DNA from: an uncultured Gemmatimonadota bacterium
Lineage (GTDB): Bacteria > Gemmatimonadota > Gemmatimonadetes > Gemmatimonadales > Gemmatimonadaceae
Reading direction: 5' to 3'
DNA: 64,000 bases
NCBI GenBank assembly: GCA_903910555.1
Contig: CAIVZZ010000019.1
Coordinates: 1-64,000 of the forward strand
Shown here: positions 22,042 through 51,914 of the stretch, in pieces
Numbering within the stretch: the first letter of the stretch is position 1
How the letters are laid out: each line of letters begins with the position of its first letter
Notes under the pieces: model-generated
Database searches by the model: none
Told to the model about the DNA's origin: nothing
The model's input: the letters and a program-made list of their open reading frames with translations, nothing else
Translations under genes and position numbers: made by a program

Positions 22042-22767
22042 ATGCATTCTTTCCGCGGCTTCCCACCCACATCGCTCGCGTTTCTGCGCGCGCTGAAAAA
22101 AAACAACCGGCGCGAGTGGTTCGAAGAACATCGCGACGAGTTCGTGCGCGAAATCTCGGATCCGATGAAAGCGCTGATCGAGGAACTCGACATTCGCTTC
22201 GCGGCGCTCGCGCCGGAGTTCGTCGGCGATCCGAAGCGTTCGATGTTCCGGATCTACCGTGACGTGCGATTCTCAAAGGACAAATCGCCGTACAAGACGC
22301 ACGCGGCGCTCTGGATTTATCATCGGGCGCCGGGCCGCGGAGTGGGCAAGGAGATCGACGGCGGGGCGGGATTCTACGTGCACCTCGAACCGAATGCGTC
22401 CTTGATTGCCGCCGGTCTTTGGATGCCGCCGCGGCCTTCGCTCGCAAAAGTGCGCGAGCATTTCAGTGAAGATCTCGCGGGATGGAAACGCGCCGTGACC
22501 GCGCCGGCGGTGCTGAAACGATTCGGGGGATTGGTCGACGACGAACCCGGAATTTTATTGAAGCGGCTGCCGCGGGGATTTGAAGAAGGACATCCGGCGG
22601 AGAAATGGCTGCGGTATAACTCGTTTACGATGCACCGGTCATACACAGATGCAGAGATTCTCTCGCCGAAGCTGGCGGACCGGGCGATGAAGGATTTTTC
22701 GTTGTTGGTGCCGATGGCTCGGTGGCTTAACCGGGCGCTTGGGTATTTGCCGGCGAAGAGTCGATAG
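22042..22767 (+). CDS. DUF2461 family protein
   Basis: A soluble protein of 241 residues in the DUF2461/TIGR02453 family. Conserved blocks are FLRALKKNNRREWFEEHRDE at the N-terminus, RIYRDVRFSKDKSPYKTHAA in the middle and GFYVHLEPNASLIAAGLWMP. The ATG at 22042 is chosen since similarity begins with FRGFPPTSLAFL. The biochemical role of the family is not known. The gene ends eight bases before the IVS-like element, whose left arm begins at 22776. Confidence 0.9.
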   Translation: MHSFRGFPPTSLAFLRALKKNNRREWFEEHRDEFVREISDPMKALIEELDIRFAALAPEFVGDPKRSMFRIYRDVRFSKDKSPYKTHAALWIYHRAPGRGVGKEIDGGAGFYVHLEPNASLIAAGLWMPPRPSLAKVREHFSEDLAGWKRAVTAPAVLKRFGGLVDDEPGILLKRLPRGFEEGHPAEKWLRYNSFTMHRSYTDAEILSPKLADRAMKDFSLLVPMARWLNRALGYLPAKSR

Positions 22768-22775
22768 CAGGGACG

Positions 22776-23463
22776 CGGGATTTCCGGCTGATGCAGAATG
22801 CAGAAGAGGAATGCGGGATTTGGGATAAGAGATGAGGGGCGAGGTTGGATGCGGGATGTGGAATGGGTCTAGGAGTCTGAATCGGCCGAGCGACGGCCAA
22901 TGTCATTCATCGAGCGCGTGGATGTGGTCGGCCTCGCGTTCCTCACGGTCGTGAGAAGCAATCGGCGAATCTGAACGAGGATTCGTTGGCGATGAGCGAC
23001 TGTCTCGCCGAGTTCCATCGCGAGCGTGTCGTACCACGCAATCGCCTCTCGCGTCGATCCGAGTGCGTACCCATAGAAGCGCACGCGATCCGCGATTGAT
23101 GATCGTGAATAGCCCTCAGCAATGTTGGCCGCGACTGACCCGAGAGCGCGCGTCAACTGATCGAGCGCAGGCGCTTTCGTCATGGCGGGGCTGCGCACGC
23201 GATCGAACGTGTGGCACGCGATCGCATAAACGCTCATTCGGTAAGCCTGCACCGTCCAAAGCGGATCGCCGCTCCGCACGTCGTCCACTCCCTTCTCCCA
23301 CTCGGCGATTGGCAGCATCTCGGGTTTCGTCATCCCGCACGATGCCACCCCCGCCACTAAAACTCATCACCAATTCCCCGCATCCCGCATCCAATCTCGC
23401 CCGTCATCTCTTATCCCAAATCCCGCATTCCTCTTCTGCATCCTGCATCAGCGGAAAATCCCG
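22776..23463. mobile_element. free-standing 23S-IVS-like element with long complementary arms
   Basis: The arms 22776-22861 and 23378-23463 are 86-base inverted copies with only about seven mismatches. They enclose a single minus-strand gene (22869-23357) for a four-helix-bundle protein of the type encoded in 23S rRNA intervening sequences. A transcript would fold into a long stem with the gene in the loop, the same design as rRNA intervening sequences, but here the element sits between protein genes. The right arm abuts the 3' end of the M16 peptidase gene. A shortened copy of the arm sequence without the gene is at 51721-51914. Mobility is an inference. Confidence 0.75.
22869..23357 (-). 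CDS. four-helix-bundle protein (23S rRNA intervening-sequence protein type)
   Basis: A protein of about 162 residues (154 if the ATG at 23333 is the start rather than the GTG at 23357). It belongs to the TIGR02436/S23 four-helix-bundle family, seen in QLTRALGSVAANIAEGYSRS and then RVRFYGYALGSTREAIAWYD, which are the family's helix two and three signatures. Relatives are encoded in rRNA intervening sequences and, as Avd, beside diversity-generating retroelements. No reverse transcriptase is present. It is enclosed by long complementary arms on both sides. A nucleic-acid-binding role is known for Avd and inferred here. Confidence 0.88.
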   Translation of the reverse strand: MAGVASCGMTKPEMLPIAEWEKGVDDVRSGDPLWTVQAYRMSVYAIACHTFDRVRSPAMTKAPALDQLTRALGSVAANIAEGYSRSSIADRVRFYGYALGSTREAIAWYDTLAMELGETVAHRQRILVQIRRLLLTTVRNARPTTSTRSMNDIGRRSADSDS

Positions 23464-23510
23464 CATTCCTCTCCTGCATTCTGCGTCAGCAGTAAATCCC
23501 GCATCCCTAC
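23418..23510. repeat. tandem units in the right arm of the IVS-like element
   Basis: A unit of about 39 bases beginning AAATCCCGCATTCCTC is present from 23418, is repeated from about 23457, and a third partial copy (AAATCCCGCATCCC) runs to the stop codon of the M16 gene at 23507. The left arm has only one copy, so the right side has expanded by duplication. Confidence 0.75.
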
Positions 23511-26170
23511 ACGACTCGCCCCGTCCCCCTCACCACCCCCTCAACCCGCCGCTCAGAATCGAAGTACGCCCGCGCAAGCTGGAGCATCTGCGCCGCCGAA
23601 ACACTCCGCACGCGCTGCTCATAATCCGTTAGCTCCGAGAGCGACCGTCCGAACAACCACGCGTCCGCGATGTCATTCATCATCGCCCCCGCACTCTCGC
23701 GGCGAATTGCCCACGTTCCGAGCGCATAGGTTTTCGCCTGTGTGAGTTCGCGTTCCGTTACCGGCGATTCGCGCAGCCGCGCAAACTCACGAAGCAGTCC
23801 GCTGCGCGCCGCATCCTCCTTTTCGGGTGACATCGCGATGTACGCGCTGAACGCGCCGGCGCGGCGGCGGACGAGCGGCTGTGCCATGACGGTGTACGCG
23901 AGCGACTGACGGTCGCGCAGCTCGTCGAAGAACCGGCCGCCAAGTCCACTCGCGACGCCCGCGATCATCCCCGCGCTGAATCGCGCATCGTCGTCGCGCG
24001 CCGGACCTTCGAACAACATGGCGAGCGCGCTCTGTGCTTTGTCCCGCCGATCTTCTGCAGTCCGAACGGAATCAGTCCACGCCGGAACCGGCACTTCGCT
24101 TCCCGGCGCATCGCGCAGCGCGCTGAAAAAGCGCGTCGCGAGCGACGCACCTTCGTCCGGATCAACATCACCCACGCAGACCAGCACACCCGGCGCTTCG
24201 ACCGCCACCTTCGCATGCCATCGCCGCAAAGCCGCCGCGTCAATCTTGGCGAGCGATTCCTCTGTGCCGAGCACCGACTGTCCATACGGATGCGCGGCCC
24301 ACGCCGCACGGGTCGCGAGTCGCAGCGGCCAGCGGTACATGTCGTCACGCAGTGCCGCGAGATTCGCGAGGGCGACCGCACGCTCGGACTCGAGCGCCTC
24401 CTCGCCGAACGAGGGACGCTGCACGACGTCGGCAAGCAGCTCCGCCGCATCGTCGAGCCGCCGCCGCGGCACGGAGATCGTCCATTGGAATCCATCGGCG
24501 GCAGCGGCTGTCGAGAGCACGCCGCCGAGAAATTCGGCGTCCTCCGCAATCCGCTGCGCGCTGCGGCGCTCCGTTCCCTTGAGCGATACGCGCGTCATCA
24601 GCGACGTAAGACCGGCGGCGTTGGCCGGTTCATGCACGGCGCCGCCACGCACGAACCAGCCGAGATGTGCAACGGGCCCCGGACGTCGATGCACGAGCAC
24701 CGGCACGCCGCCCGACATTCTGAACACACGAACCTGCGCTTCCTCGCGCTCGAACACCCACGCGCGTGAGCCATGCACCGGGGTCGGCGGACTCGGATGC
24801 GTGAGCGGATCGAGTGGCGCCGGCCGCTCGCCGTCGAGTGCGTCGCGCATCTCGGCGGCATTCGCTGCGAACTGCGGCGCACCCACCGGCCGGTATGCGA
24901 CAAGCCCTGCGCGCTCGGGCGTGAGCCAGCGCGCCGCGACTTCGGTTACGCGTTCTGTGTCGGCGGAAAGGAGCCGGTCGAGATACGCGCCGCCGAGCTG
25001 CCAGTCGCCCGCGACTTCCCAGCTGGCAAGGTGGTTCGCCTGCCCCTCCATGGATTCAAAACGGCGCAGCCATTGCGCTTCGAGCACGCGCCGCGCGCGC
25101 TCGATTTCTGCCGGAGAAATCTCGCCCTCGCGGACGCGGCGCAGCTGATCCCATGTCGCGCGCGCAGCGCTGCGCACACGTTCAGGCCGCGCCGTGGAGT
25201 GCACAACGAATACGCCGACTTCGCCCGGCGTGTAATCGTACGCGACGACCGACGATGCCAGGCGTCGCTCGCGCACCGCACGGTACAAGCGCGACGCGCG
25301 ACCGTTCGCGAGCACCGCCGCGAGCAGGTCGAGCGGCGGCGTGTCCTCGTGCAGCAGTGCGGGCGTACGCCAGCCGAACACGATCTCGGCCTGCTGAATG
25401 TCGCCGGCAAACTCGCGGTAGCGGAATGACGGATCGACATGCGCCGGCTCCGGCGGCCCCGCGATGCGGTCCACGGCGCCGTTCGGAATCGATCCGTAGT
25501 ATCGCTCGGCAAGCGCGATCGCTTCGCTCGTGTCGACGTCGCCGACGATCGAGAGAACGGTGTTCGAAGGCCGGTAGAATTTTCGGTAAAAGCCGCCGAC
25601 CATCTCACTCGTGAACGTGCGCAGCCCGGCCTCGCGGCCGATGCGCCAGCGCCGGATGCGGTGTTTGTCGTGCAGGAGTTCAAAGAGCGTTTCGGTCGCC
25701 AGCGCCGTCGCGCTGTCGGTCTTGCGCTTGGCTTCTTCGATGATGACTTCGAGCTCCCGCGACAGTTCACCGGCATCGATCAGCGAGTTCGCGTACGCGT
25801 CGGCCTGGATCGCCAGGCCGGCGGCGAACCCGTTCGAAGGAAGCACTGTGTAGTAATGCGTGTGATCGTAAATCGTGCCGGCGTTGAGATAGCCGCCGCT
25901 CGCTTTCGTATCGCGAGCAATGTCACCGGGCCCGCGCGTGGGCGTTCCCTTGAAGTACATGTGCTCGAGCACGTGCGCGATCCCGACTTCATCGTCCGTT
26001 TCGTCGAAGTAGCCGGCCTTCACATAGGTCACGATCGCAACGACCGGCGCGCTGGTGTCGCGGCGCACAAGCAGGCGCAGACCGTTCGCGAGCGTCGTCC
26101 GCACGACGGAGTCGGGCGGCAGCACGCTGTCGAGCAGCCCGGCGTAAGGTGCGCGAGCCGGCGGAGTCAT
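23507..26170 (-). CDS. M16 family zinc metallopeptidase (two-domain, insulinase-like)
   Basis: A protein of about 887 residues with two M16 half-barrels. The inverted zinc motif is His66-Val-Leu-Glu69-His70 in GIAHVLEHMYFKGTPTRG, with the distal Glu in REVIIEEAKRK-like LEVIIEEAKRKTD. The second half (from about residue 450) lacks the zinc motif, as usual. The ATG at 26170 overlaps the stop of an ABC permease gene, giving an exporter-plus-peptidase operon. There is no signal peptide in the chosen start, so location is probably cytosolic. The stop codon touches the repeat at 23418-23510. Confidence 0.92.
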   Translation of the reverse strand: MTPPARAPYAGLLDSVLPPDSVVRTTLANGLRLLVRRDTSAPVVAIVTYVKAGYFDETDDEVGIAHVLEHMYFKGTPTRGPGDIARDTKASGGYLNAGTIYDHTHYYTVLPSNGFAAGLAIQADAYANSLIDAGELSRELEVIIEEAKRKTDSATALATETLFELLHDKHRIRRWRIGREAGLRTFTSEMVGGFYRKFYRPSNTVLSIVGDVDTSEAIALAERYYGSIPNGAVDRIAGPPEPAHVDPSFRYREFAGDIQQAEIVFGWRTPALLHEDTPPLDLLAAVLANGRASRLYRAVRERRLASSVVAYDYTPGEVGVFVVHSTARPERVRSAARATWDQLRRVREGEISPAEIERARRVLEAQWLRRFESMEGQANHLASWEVAGDWQLGGAYLDRLLSADTERVTEVAARWLTPERAGLVAYRPVGAPQFAANAAEMRDALDGERPAPLDPLTHPSPPTPVHGSRAWVFEREEAQVRVFRMSGGVPVLVHRRPGPVAHLGWFVRGGAVHEPANAAGLTSLMTRVSLKGTERRSAQRIAEDAEFLGGVLSTAAAADGFQWTISVPRRRLDDAAELLADVVQRPSFGEEALESERAVALANLAALRDDMYRWPLRLATRAAWAAHPYGQSVLGTEESLAKIDAAALRRWHAKVAVEAPGVLVCVGDVDPDEGASLATRFFSALRDAPGSEVPVPAWTDSVRTAEDRRDKAQSALAMLFEGPARDDDARFSAGMIAGVASGLGGRFFDELRDRQSLAYTVMAQPLVRRRAGAFSAYIAMSPEKEDAARSGLLREFARLRESPVTERELTQAKTYALGTWAIRRESAGAMMNDIADAWLFGRSLSELTDYEQRVRSVSAAQMLQLARAYFDSERRVEGVVRGTGRVV

Positions 26171-26937
26171 CGTGCGAGCGGACGCCAACGCAGAAAGATG
26201 AGGCCGAGAATCCAGCCGCCGGCGCCGTACGCGAGGACGTGCCACATGTCGCCGGAGGTGATCGGCTGGGCCGCACCGAGCTCACCGCGCAATTTTTCGA
26301 GACGGAGTCCCGGCGGAAGAATTTTTGCAGTGATAACAAGCCACTGCGGCGGCCCGGAATATCCGATCAGCGTGTTCTGCGCGGAAATCGCGAAAATAAA
26401 CGCGAGCGGCGTGACCGCAGCGTCCATGTTGGTGAGCGCGCCGAATCCGAACCCGAGCCCGCCGATCAGCGCGAACGCGAATACGCCGACGAGCGCGGCG
26501 CGATGCATCGACTCGTGCGGCATCCACGCGCTCCATATGAGCGCGAACACCGCGAGCAGCGCGCAGAGTACGGCGCCGTGGATCACGAACGTGTGCAAAT
26601 AGTACTGCACGACGTTCACCGGTTTTGAAAAGTAGAAGCGGTAATAGCCGGTGGTGCGATCCACCGTCATGATCGCGATCACCGCGAGAAATACCGAGAA
26701 ATAGAGCAGCAGTGCCGACAGGCTGCCGTACGTCGAGTGCAGATCCGCAATGAACTTCGGATTCGACCATTGTTTCGGACCGGCAATCTTGAGCGTGCTG
26801 TGGATCAGCGCCCACGTAATTAATCCGAGCAGCGCCACGGGAATCGAGGCGCGCTGCAGCAGATAGTCGCCGATGGTATATCGCGTCTGCGTGAGAAGCC
26901 GCGAGGGCGACGAGAACAAACTCCCGGGGCCGTTCAT
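26167..26937 (-). CDS. ABC-2 type transporter permease
   Basis: An integral membrane protein of 256 residues with about six hydrophobic segments. It is paralogous to the next upstream permease: both contain a central DRTTGYYRFYFSKPVNVVQY or similar stretch (DRQQGYFRFLFSKPINILAY in the other) and end with a short C-terminal helix followed by LRWRPL or LRRLPL. It overlaps the M16 gene and the second permease gene by four bases each. It forms the membrane half of an ABC exporter with the ATPase at 27680-28582. Confidence 0.85.
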   Translation of the reverse strand: MNGPGSLFSSPSRLLTQTRYTIGDYLLQRASIPVALLGLITWALIHSTLKIAGPKQWSNPKFIADLHSTYGSLSALLLYFSVFLAVIAIMTVDRTTGYYRFYFSKPVNVVQYYLHTFVIHGAVLCALLAVFALIWSAWMPHESMHRAALVGVFAFALIGGLGFGFGALTNMDAAVTPLAFIFAISAQNTLIGYSGPPQWLVITAKILPPGLRLEKLRGELGAAQPITSGDMWHVLAYGAGGWILGLIFLRWRPLAR

Positions 26938-50665: not shown

Positions 50666-51754
50666 CTAGGGCCGCGGTTTGATCTCGCCGGTGGCTGAGA
50701 TCTCCGCTCCAGTCGCAGGAAAATCCTGTTTGGACAATTCCGCGACATCATGTGCCCCGAGATTGGCGGAATCCGCCTGCACATAGCCGGGCGCGCTTTG
50801 CACCGTTGAACGCAGCACCGCGTCGTGCACCGAGCCGTCGCCCGCAAGATTCGCGCACAGCACCGCGCCGTGGTCGTTCACTCCAGAGTGATTGAACGGC
50901 CCGTACGTGACCAGATTCCCGAGCGAGTGCGCGATGAGTGAGTGTCCATTCCACTCGATCGCGCGCAGCACGTGCGGTCCGCTGCCAATCACGAGACTCG
51001 CACCTGCTGCGACCGCGGCGCGCGCGAACGCGACACTGTTGCCGCGATTCTCACCGGCAAAATGCTCGATCCGGTCCGGCGTGTGGCGCGCGGTGGCACC
51101 TTCCGCGCCGATATGCATCGTGACGATCACGCGGCCATAACGCTCCGCAGCGCGCGCGACGCTGCGCGTCACGGCGTCGAGATCGGTGACGCCTTGCACA
51201 CTCCACGGGCTGAAGCCGAGGAACGCGATGGTGTCGCCATCGGCGATCGGGACCGGAGTTGCGAGCGTATCAGCGCCGGTGGCGAGCACGCCGGCCTGCG
51301 CGAGGAGGCGCTGCGTTTCAAACAATCCCGCTTCGCCGGCATCGTGCGCGTGATTGTTCGCGATGTTGCCGACGACGGATGCGGAGTCATTTACGTGGCG
51401 CAGCGCAGCAGCCACGGACGGCTGCTGGCGGAGCGCGAAGCAAAGCGTCGAGCGTCGCGCGCACTTTCGCGGCGCGCGACCGCTGCCAATCGCGCCTTCG
51501 ACGTTCAGCAGGATGACGTTGGCGTCGGCGAGGAGCGGCGTGAGCGGCGCGAGCAGCTCGCGCGGATCCGGAAGTGCGCGGACACCGCGGCCGCGTGCCC
51601 AGGCGGTGTCGAGGTTGGTGCCCAGAGAGACATCACCGCCGGCGCAGAAGCGGATGTCTTTTTTGATGGGTGCTTGGGCGACTGCAACGGCAGAAGCGAG
51701 AACGAACGCTGTGAGAAACGAAAATGCAGAATGCAGAAGAGGAATGCGGGGCAC
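50666..51754 (-). CDS. CapA family protein (poly-gamma-glutamate synthesis type)
   Basis: An exported protein of 362 residues in the CapA metallophosphatase-like family. Conserved pieces are RFCAGGDVSLGTNLD, ILLNVEGAIGSG, VVGNIANNHAHDAGEAGL, VIVTMHIGAEG and LVIGSGPHVLRAIEWNGH. The start is a GTG at 51754. The first eleven codons (PRIPLLHSAF and so on) are encoded by an intergenic repeat, and together with SFLTAFVLASAVAVAQA they make a signal peptide. Without the repeat there would be no start codon. No other capsule genes are near. Confidence 0.88.
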   Translation of the reverse strand: MPRIPLLHSAFSFLTAFVLASAVAVAQAPIKKDIRFCAGGDVSLGTNLDTAWARGRGVRALPDPRELLAPLTPLLADANVILLNVEGAIGSGRAPRKCARRSTLCFALRQQPSVAAALRHVNDSASVVGNIANNHAHDAGEAGLFETQRLLAQAGVLATGADTLATPVPIADGDTIAFLGFSPWSVQGVTDLDAVTRSVARAAERYGRVIVTMHIGAEGATARHTPDRIEHFAGENRGNSVAFARAAVAAGASLVIGSGPHVLRAIEWNGHSLIAHSLGNLVTYGPFNHSGVNDHGAVLCANLAGDGSVHDAVLRSTVQSAPGYVQADSANLGAHDVAELSKQDFPATGAEISATGEIKPRP

Positions 51755-51914
51755 GGGATAAGTGGCGAGAGATGAGATGGATCAAGGATGCGGTACAACG
51801 TCGTTCTTCGCACCTGTGGCCCTGCGTCCTGCGTTCAACTCAAATCTCGCCGCTCCATGCCTGTACCCGCGTTCCTCTTCTGCATTCTGCATTAGCTGGA
51901 AAATCCGCATCCCG
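51721..51914. repeat. solo repeat related to the arms of the IVS-like element
   Basis: Bases 51722-51750 and 51866-51895 are inverted copies of the same core, AATGCAGAATGCAGAAGAGG, found in the arms at 22776-22861 and 23378-23463. Between them is non-coding sequence of 115 bases, without the four-helix-bundle gene. The left copy overlaps the start of the CapA-family gene and the right copy lies upstream of the TonB receptor gene. It looks like a remnant or a short non-coding derivative. Confidence 0.7.

Follow-up and report, generated by a model that had tools for sequence, protein, structure and literature searches.

Many genes of the IVP family outside rRNA lie between inverted arrays of a seven-nucleotide word and probably form small mobile elements

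To our knowledge, IVP genes (annotated as 'four helix bundle protein' or 'S23') are common and have no assigned role outside rRNA. In available accounts of REP/REPIN sequences and their RAYT genes, a gene is flanked by its own inverted repeats and gene-less inverted pairs are dispersed, much as at the locus described here; here, however, the sole gene encodes a four-helix bundle and 7-nt arrays form the repeats, while RAYTs (TnpA-REP) are Y1/HUH enzymes. Heptamer repeats of cyanobacteria, the STRR, were reportedly described by Mazel in 1990. Another similar system is the rRNA intervening sequence (IVS). According to the available text of PMC4990558, the IVS of Coxiella is 428 nt long and carries an S23p/IVP gene, and IVSs are already suspected to be mobile or remnants of transposition. 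Our element shares with them the protein family, the position of the gene between pairing ends and the similar size (PMC4990558, same text), but it lies between protein genes and has many copies per genome. A heptad rule, gene-less derivatives and a target duplication are not mentioned for IVSs in the text available from that source. Regarding other heptamers, the accessible part of PMC4679880 considers horizontal transfer of TAACTGA repeats likely, but states that 'no mechanism is evident' and suggests seeking a repeat-binding protein. The MTYCTGA heptads of Geobacter were predicted to be regulator sites and drawn as fold-back pairs (PMC2700814, accessible part), and for the heptamers of PMC4692102 the accessible part reports no general link to mobile elements.

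The locus lies in a 64,000-nt stretch (hereafter the window) of a contig from an uncultured Gemmatimonadota bacterium. The whole element, an IVP gene with both arms, occupies 22768..23509 on the minus strand. The gene itself (23S_rRNA_IVP/four helix bundle; 22869..23333, minus strand) encodes 154 aa from an ATG at 23333, with an alternative in-frame GTG upstream at 23357, and scored 46.8 bits with the PF05635 profile (cut-off 33.8) and 52.1 bits with TIGR02436 (cut-off 24). The two arms, named by the gene strand, are the 5′ arm at 23378..23470 and the 3′ arm at 22769..22861, both given on the minus strand; they form an inverted pair of 93 nt with 91.4 % identity. A sequence-only reading had described an IVP-type gene flanked by arms of 86 bases with about seven mismatches; the arrangement is real and the figures are close to ours. 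The 5′ arm continues in an extra repeat unit (23456..23508, minus strand) with a 38-nt higher-order period (families D2 and I2), which overlaps the M16 stop codon. As that reading also stated, the arms touch the stop codons of both neighbours, because the DUF2461 gene (22042..22767, plus strand; PF09365, 215 bits) ends at 22767 and the M16 peptidase gene (23507..26245, minus strand; PF00675 and PF05193) begins at 23507. The element thus sits between two protein genes and not inside an rRNA gene. Both arms are heptad arrays: the self-match at lag 7 was 0.547 in the 3′ arm (0.314 when shuffled) and 0.460 in the 5′ arm taken as 23378-23508 (0.291 when shuffled), and in neither case did any of 5000 permutations reach the observed value. 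The RNA fold of the element had a z of -17.8 against 20 shuffles, which puts the structure well outside chance. Pfam and NCBIfam scans of the window protein found no transposase or nuclease domain, the only hits being the IVP family and IVP-like subfamilies. There is no second gene in the element, as the arms leave no room for one, and no Y1/HUH (TnpA-REP) transposase.

We searched the source genome with PF05635 for other copies, as had been proposed from the sequence, and found 11 IVP genes, all 11 with matching inverted flanks; three of the loci (L010, L013, L019) have a direct flank match besides the inverted one. The arm sequences are alike within each element and mostly different between elements. 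With the window element as query, 56 matches were recovered in its own genome, mostly gene-less arms, several of them in inverted pairs. One such pair of the window arm family, with no strand assigned, is in the window itself at 51724..51913 (51724-51762, with an extended match to 51793, and inverted 51866-51913). Around control genes of this genome, inverted pairs were seen in 14 of 133 cases, two of which are themselves IVP genes; this rate is biased high, because most of the stretches were fetched for carrying the repeat. At 40 bits or more, only 3/131 non-IVP control genes were paired as against 28/36 IVP loci. Two non-IVP ORFs of the genome (L024 1553-2296 and L020 6088-6612) likewise have inverted members of the same family of repeats in their flanks.

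Within the genus, IVP genes were identified in 14 of 18 genomes, with 1-11 genes each; the four genomes without any have quoted completeness values of 96-100 %. Inverted arms were present at 34/38 genus loci. For the controls, loci with short flanks were left out, so that 36 of the 38 were used; own flanks paired in 33/36 and mismatched flanks in 57/1260. In 33 genus arms the self-match peaked at lag 7 (z = 12.8), followed by 14 and 21, and the IVP gene bodies showed no such peak (z = 0.2). The DUF2461-M16 synteny is maintained across the genus, and 13 congeneric genomes could be aligned on both sides of the window site. The site is filled in two of them (the source genome and G005) and empty in 11, where the gap is estimated at -4 to 65 bp; the flanks are too diverged to show a target duplication. 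The position is therefore not conserved in all relatives, and empty-site alleles do exist. Moreover, in two of the genomes with an empty site, G001 and G009, a related gene with related arms is found between other genes, with DNA identities of 74 % and 69 %, respectively. The proposal of a mobile element living outside rRNA gains support from the 11 copies in one genome, the patchy occurrence in 14/18 genomes and the empty sites. Four congeneric copies of the window gene gave dN/dS values of 0.17-0.27 in all six pairs, which by this measure puts the gene under purifying selection. As a separate observation, the empty DUF2461-M16 spacers of G001 and G009 (L066, L065) hold other short repeats with different words, and this spacer looks as if it were a hot spot.

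Outside the genus, IVP genes were present in 105 of 200 genomes sampled from the phylum, with inverted arms at 22/27 loci (27 of 28 having sufficient flanks). In a named set of 80 loci, 75 of which had flanks long enough for testing, arms were found at 60. By record title, the arm-positive loci belong to Gemmatimonadota, Planctomycetota, Acidobacteriota, Chloroflexota, Cyanobacteria, Bacteroidota, Pseudomonadota, Actinobacteria, Nitrospirae, Omnitrophota and a Nealsonbacteria bin. Neighbouring genes served as control and had inverted arms in 10/145 cases, and these include at least one IVP gene (L148). Mismatched flanks matched more often in this set (921/5550, own flanks 60/75), because the TCAGC word is common to several phyla. 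Further arms were recovered at 16/20 loci in ten genomes, at 4/5 Holophagales loci (two of seven had short flanks) and at 13/13 plasmid loci, tested out of 28 records with a match. Once identical genes were removed, 160 distinct loci remained, of which 134 carry inverted arms and 26 lack detectable ones. Apart from one, L259, the 134 arm-bearing loci are not known to have an rRNA context, as judged with short motifs, and a search for phage association with one query protein gave no match in 50,697 records.

We scanned 159 of the 160 loci (one was dropped) for a 4-mer repeated at least three times with a constant period of 4-12, on both sides and inverted. Arrays of period 7 flank 91/159 IVP genes, and each of the periods 4-6 and 8-12 was found at 0-6 of the 159. 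In direct orientation, period 7 was found at 27 loci, and in shuffles at none; among neighbour genes it was found at 6/145, three of these being IVP genes. The mismatched flanks, shuffles and period scan rule out chance or base composition as the source of the arms. The element is real and widespread.

In the named set, the word is mostly TCAG[C/T]NN upstream on the gene strand and its reverse complement downstream. In the 5′ flanks of this set, TCAG spacings of 7, 14, 21 and 28 account for 140, 108, 76 and 48 pairs, and other spacings are almost nil. The 5′ array stands about 70 nt ahead of the start codon. Both arms have the expected orientation at 34/75 loci and the opposite one at 1/75. 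Similarity of the words tracks similarity of the proteins (Mantel r 0.40, 0/2000 permutations as high), also between phyla. Comparisons of sequences document that gene and arms occur together at different sites and that word and protein co-vary. We consider the locus likely to be a small mobile element: a single IVP gene, bounded by two mutually inverted arrays of a 7-nt word that is specific to the element.

In a plasmid of Trichormus variabilis, an IVP element is inserted in a trb operon, and the insertion is absent from Nostoc linckia, Tolypothrix and Nostoc carneum at flank identities of 97.4-97.8 %. The empty site AAAAAGTAATTAAC has become AAAAAGTAAT-element-GTAATTAAC, with a 5-bp duplication of GTAAT, and the two copies of the target enclose both gene and arms. 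In Scytonema the same insertion is present, but the heptads on its 5′ side are fewer. The GTAAT duplication was the single clean one at the seven sites compared. At site B, TTCTA is compatible with a duplication but the case is ambiguous, because the last heptad resembles TTCTA; four sites were unresolved (plasmid sites 2, 3, A and C), with differing flanks and no clear duplication; and the seventh, in rRNA, is a replacement of 19 bp. Mobility is well supported by these comparisons, which document the same anatomy in many phyla, dispersal, empty sites and, in a relative, one clean 5-bp duplication. At the Trichormus site, Nostoc C052 (L265 1015-1215, NZ_CP040277.1) has a decayed remnant consisting of the 5′ arm and a partial gene.

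The rRNA copy is on a plasmid of Azospirillum lipoferum 4B (L259, NC_016586.1 13392-15730), unannotated and within 23S rRNA (LSU_rRNA_bacteria, 1699 bits). The element takes the place of a 19-bp hairpin tip; another replicon of the strain still has this tip, in an uninterrupted gene, and no target duplication was found at the insertion. Its arms have self-matches of 0.66 at lag 7 in both and of 0.77 and 0.68 at lag 14, so at least one rRNA IVS shares the anatomy of the free-standing elements, and the analogy to rRNA IVSs drawn in the sequence-only reading was borne out by these heptad arms.

That reading also described the locus as a long hairpin. The arms are inverted and the fold of the window element is strong, but strict pairing fits less well, and inverted arrays of 7-nt words describe the arms better. 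Between arms of the named set, constant bases are identical at 600/625 positions and variable bases at 132/227, and across 92 loci the in-register agreement of the variable bases is only a little higher than in shuffled order (z = 4.0). The strict hairpin is weakened by this test: the arms resemble arrays of sites more than a strict stem, because pairing would preserve variable and constant bases alike. The same numbers bear on an element acting at the RNA level, in which the arms would pair and RNase III would excise the IVP hairpin, so that insertion into operons would be tolerated, and an Avd-like protein would aid movement through an RNA intermediate. The fold z of -17.8, the common anatomy of the rRNA copy, the tight operons hit (e.g. 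cas10|cmr3) and the weak resemblance of the IVP fold to Avd of the DGR retroelements agree with such a life cycle. The register test does not, and neither do the neighbours: no orientation preference relative to them was found, and they are co-directional no more often than in controls. We regard the RNA-level explanation as rather unlikely.

Regarding the protein, the AF2 model had a mean pLDDT of 90 and matched the folds of 2gsc and 2rld, both entries with five chains by sequence. Avd (PDB 4dwl, 8ube) was a weaker match (Foldseek E 0.47-1.4). The available text of PMC10053308 is in line with a related four-helix-bundle fold in Avd of DGRs, but the match is weak and the window IVP gene has no reverse transcriptase among its immediate neighbours (DUF2461, M16). 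Among the residues invariant in 18/18 aligned proteins are Gln, Ser, Asn and two Glu, and no known catalytic motif was identified among the conserved positions of this alignment. We strongly infer that IVP binds the heptads. A putative IVP oligomer, perhaps like the five-chain relatives, would recognise the heptads at both ends, bring the ends of the element together and direct insertion into intergenic spacers; cutting and joining could be done either by IVP itself or by a host enzyme. Gene-less arm pairs might be moved in trans, like MITEs and REPINs.

Binding of the arms would also be expected if the locus were a stationary autoregulatory unit, with the arms as operator or attenuator arrays conserved for regulation. 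Arrays of a spaced word resemble the targets of RNA-binding proteins that form rings, such as TRAP, and the 5′ array, some 70 nt upstream of the start codon, is suitably placed. A stationary unit is nevertheless hard to reconcile with the patchy occurrence, the sites found empty, the copies that have moved, the scattered gene-less pairs and the one target duplication, and we think it improbable.

Gene-less arrays were surveyed in 61 Holophagales genomes. The pattern (TCAGCNN)3 was present in 20 genomes, IVP genes in 17 and both in nine (Fisher p = 0.04; with at least 20 arrays required, 0.004), and the reversed control pattern was present in just four. An IVP gene is missing from 11 of the 20 genomes that have TCAGC arrays (two genomes of this kind have 53 and 28 array matches), and 8/17 with IVP lack the TCAGC word. 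A strict dependence of repeat and gene was therefore rejected; in this order it is only partial. At 20 array loci examined, arrays within 300 bp of each other are arranged forward-then-reverse in nine cases and in the opposite order in one, which falls between two adjacent pairs.

Arrays in genomes without IVP, together with the different solo repeats at the window intergenic site in G001 and G009, would fit a passenger role, in which IVP lands between heptad repeats of the host (terminators, or STRR/REP-like sequences) that act as insertion hot spots. But the word is particular to each element, agrees between its two sides and co-varies with the protein, the orientation is fixed (34/75 against 1/75), neighbour genes lack arms, and in Trichormus the target duplicates enclose arms and gene alike. 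We disfavour the passenger role as very improbable.

The heptamer repeats of other bacteria have the same 7-nt period and word class as the IVP arms: TAACTGA is the reverse complement of TCAGTTA, and MTYCTGA that of TCAGRAK. The accessible parts of PMC4679880 and PMC2700814, however, treat them as repeats or regulatory sites with no associated gene. As word and period are common to both, we infer a link to IVP genes. Our best reading is a widespread class of mobile element, with rRNA IVSs as one niche and the heptamer repeats as likely non-autonomous derivatives. A fuller version, slightly favoured in our judgement, makes IVP the recognition (perhaps catalytic) part of an unrecognised, multi-phylum class of transposable elements ending in inverted heptad arrays; the heptamer repeats of cyanobacteria, Beggiatoaceae, Bacteroidetes and Geobacter would be non-autonomous derivatives and rRNA IVSs copies that landed in rRNA. 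No report of heptad arms at IVP genes was found among the titles and abstract openings covered by our incomplete literature search. The heptad rule offers a lead on IVP genes, namely that they travel with their own repeat arrays, and makes the spread of bacterial heptamer repeats and the mobility of rRNA IVSs testable. The element may account for the enigmatic seven-base repeats described from many bacterial genomes. Its mobility would also rest on a protein in which no nuclease or recombinase domain is known.

Some further cyanobacterial plasmid loci deserve mention. IVP elements were seen in CRISPR operons (L248, L253, L256), twice at cas6|cas4 and once at cas10|cmr3. Nostoc ATCC 53789 (L268 995-1310, NZ_CP046706.1) has a gene-less inverted heptad pair at a site that in Nostoc C052 is occupied by gene and arms. 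In Dolichospermum (H152, NZ_CP043057.1 11170-12194), the cas6/cas4 flanks are about 99 % identical to those of Anabaena sp. 90, and a different sequence, perhaps a gene-less derivative, replaces the IVP element of that strain.
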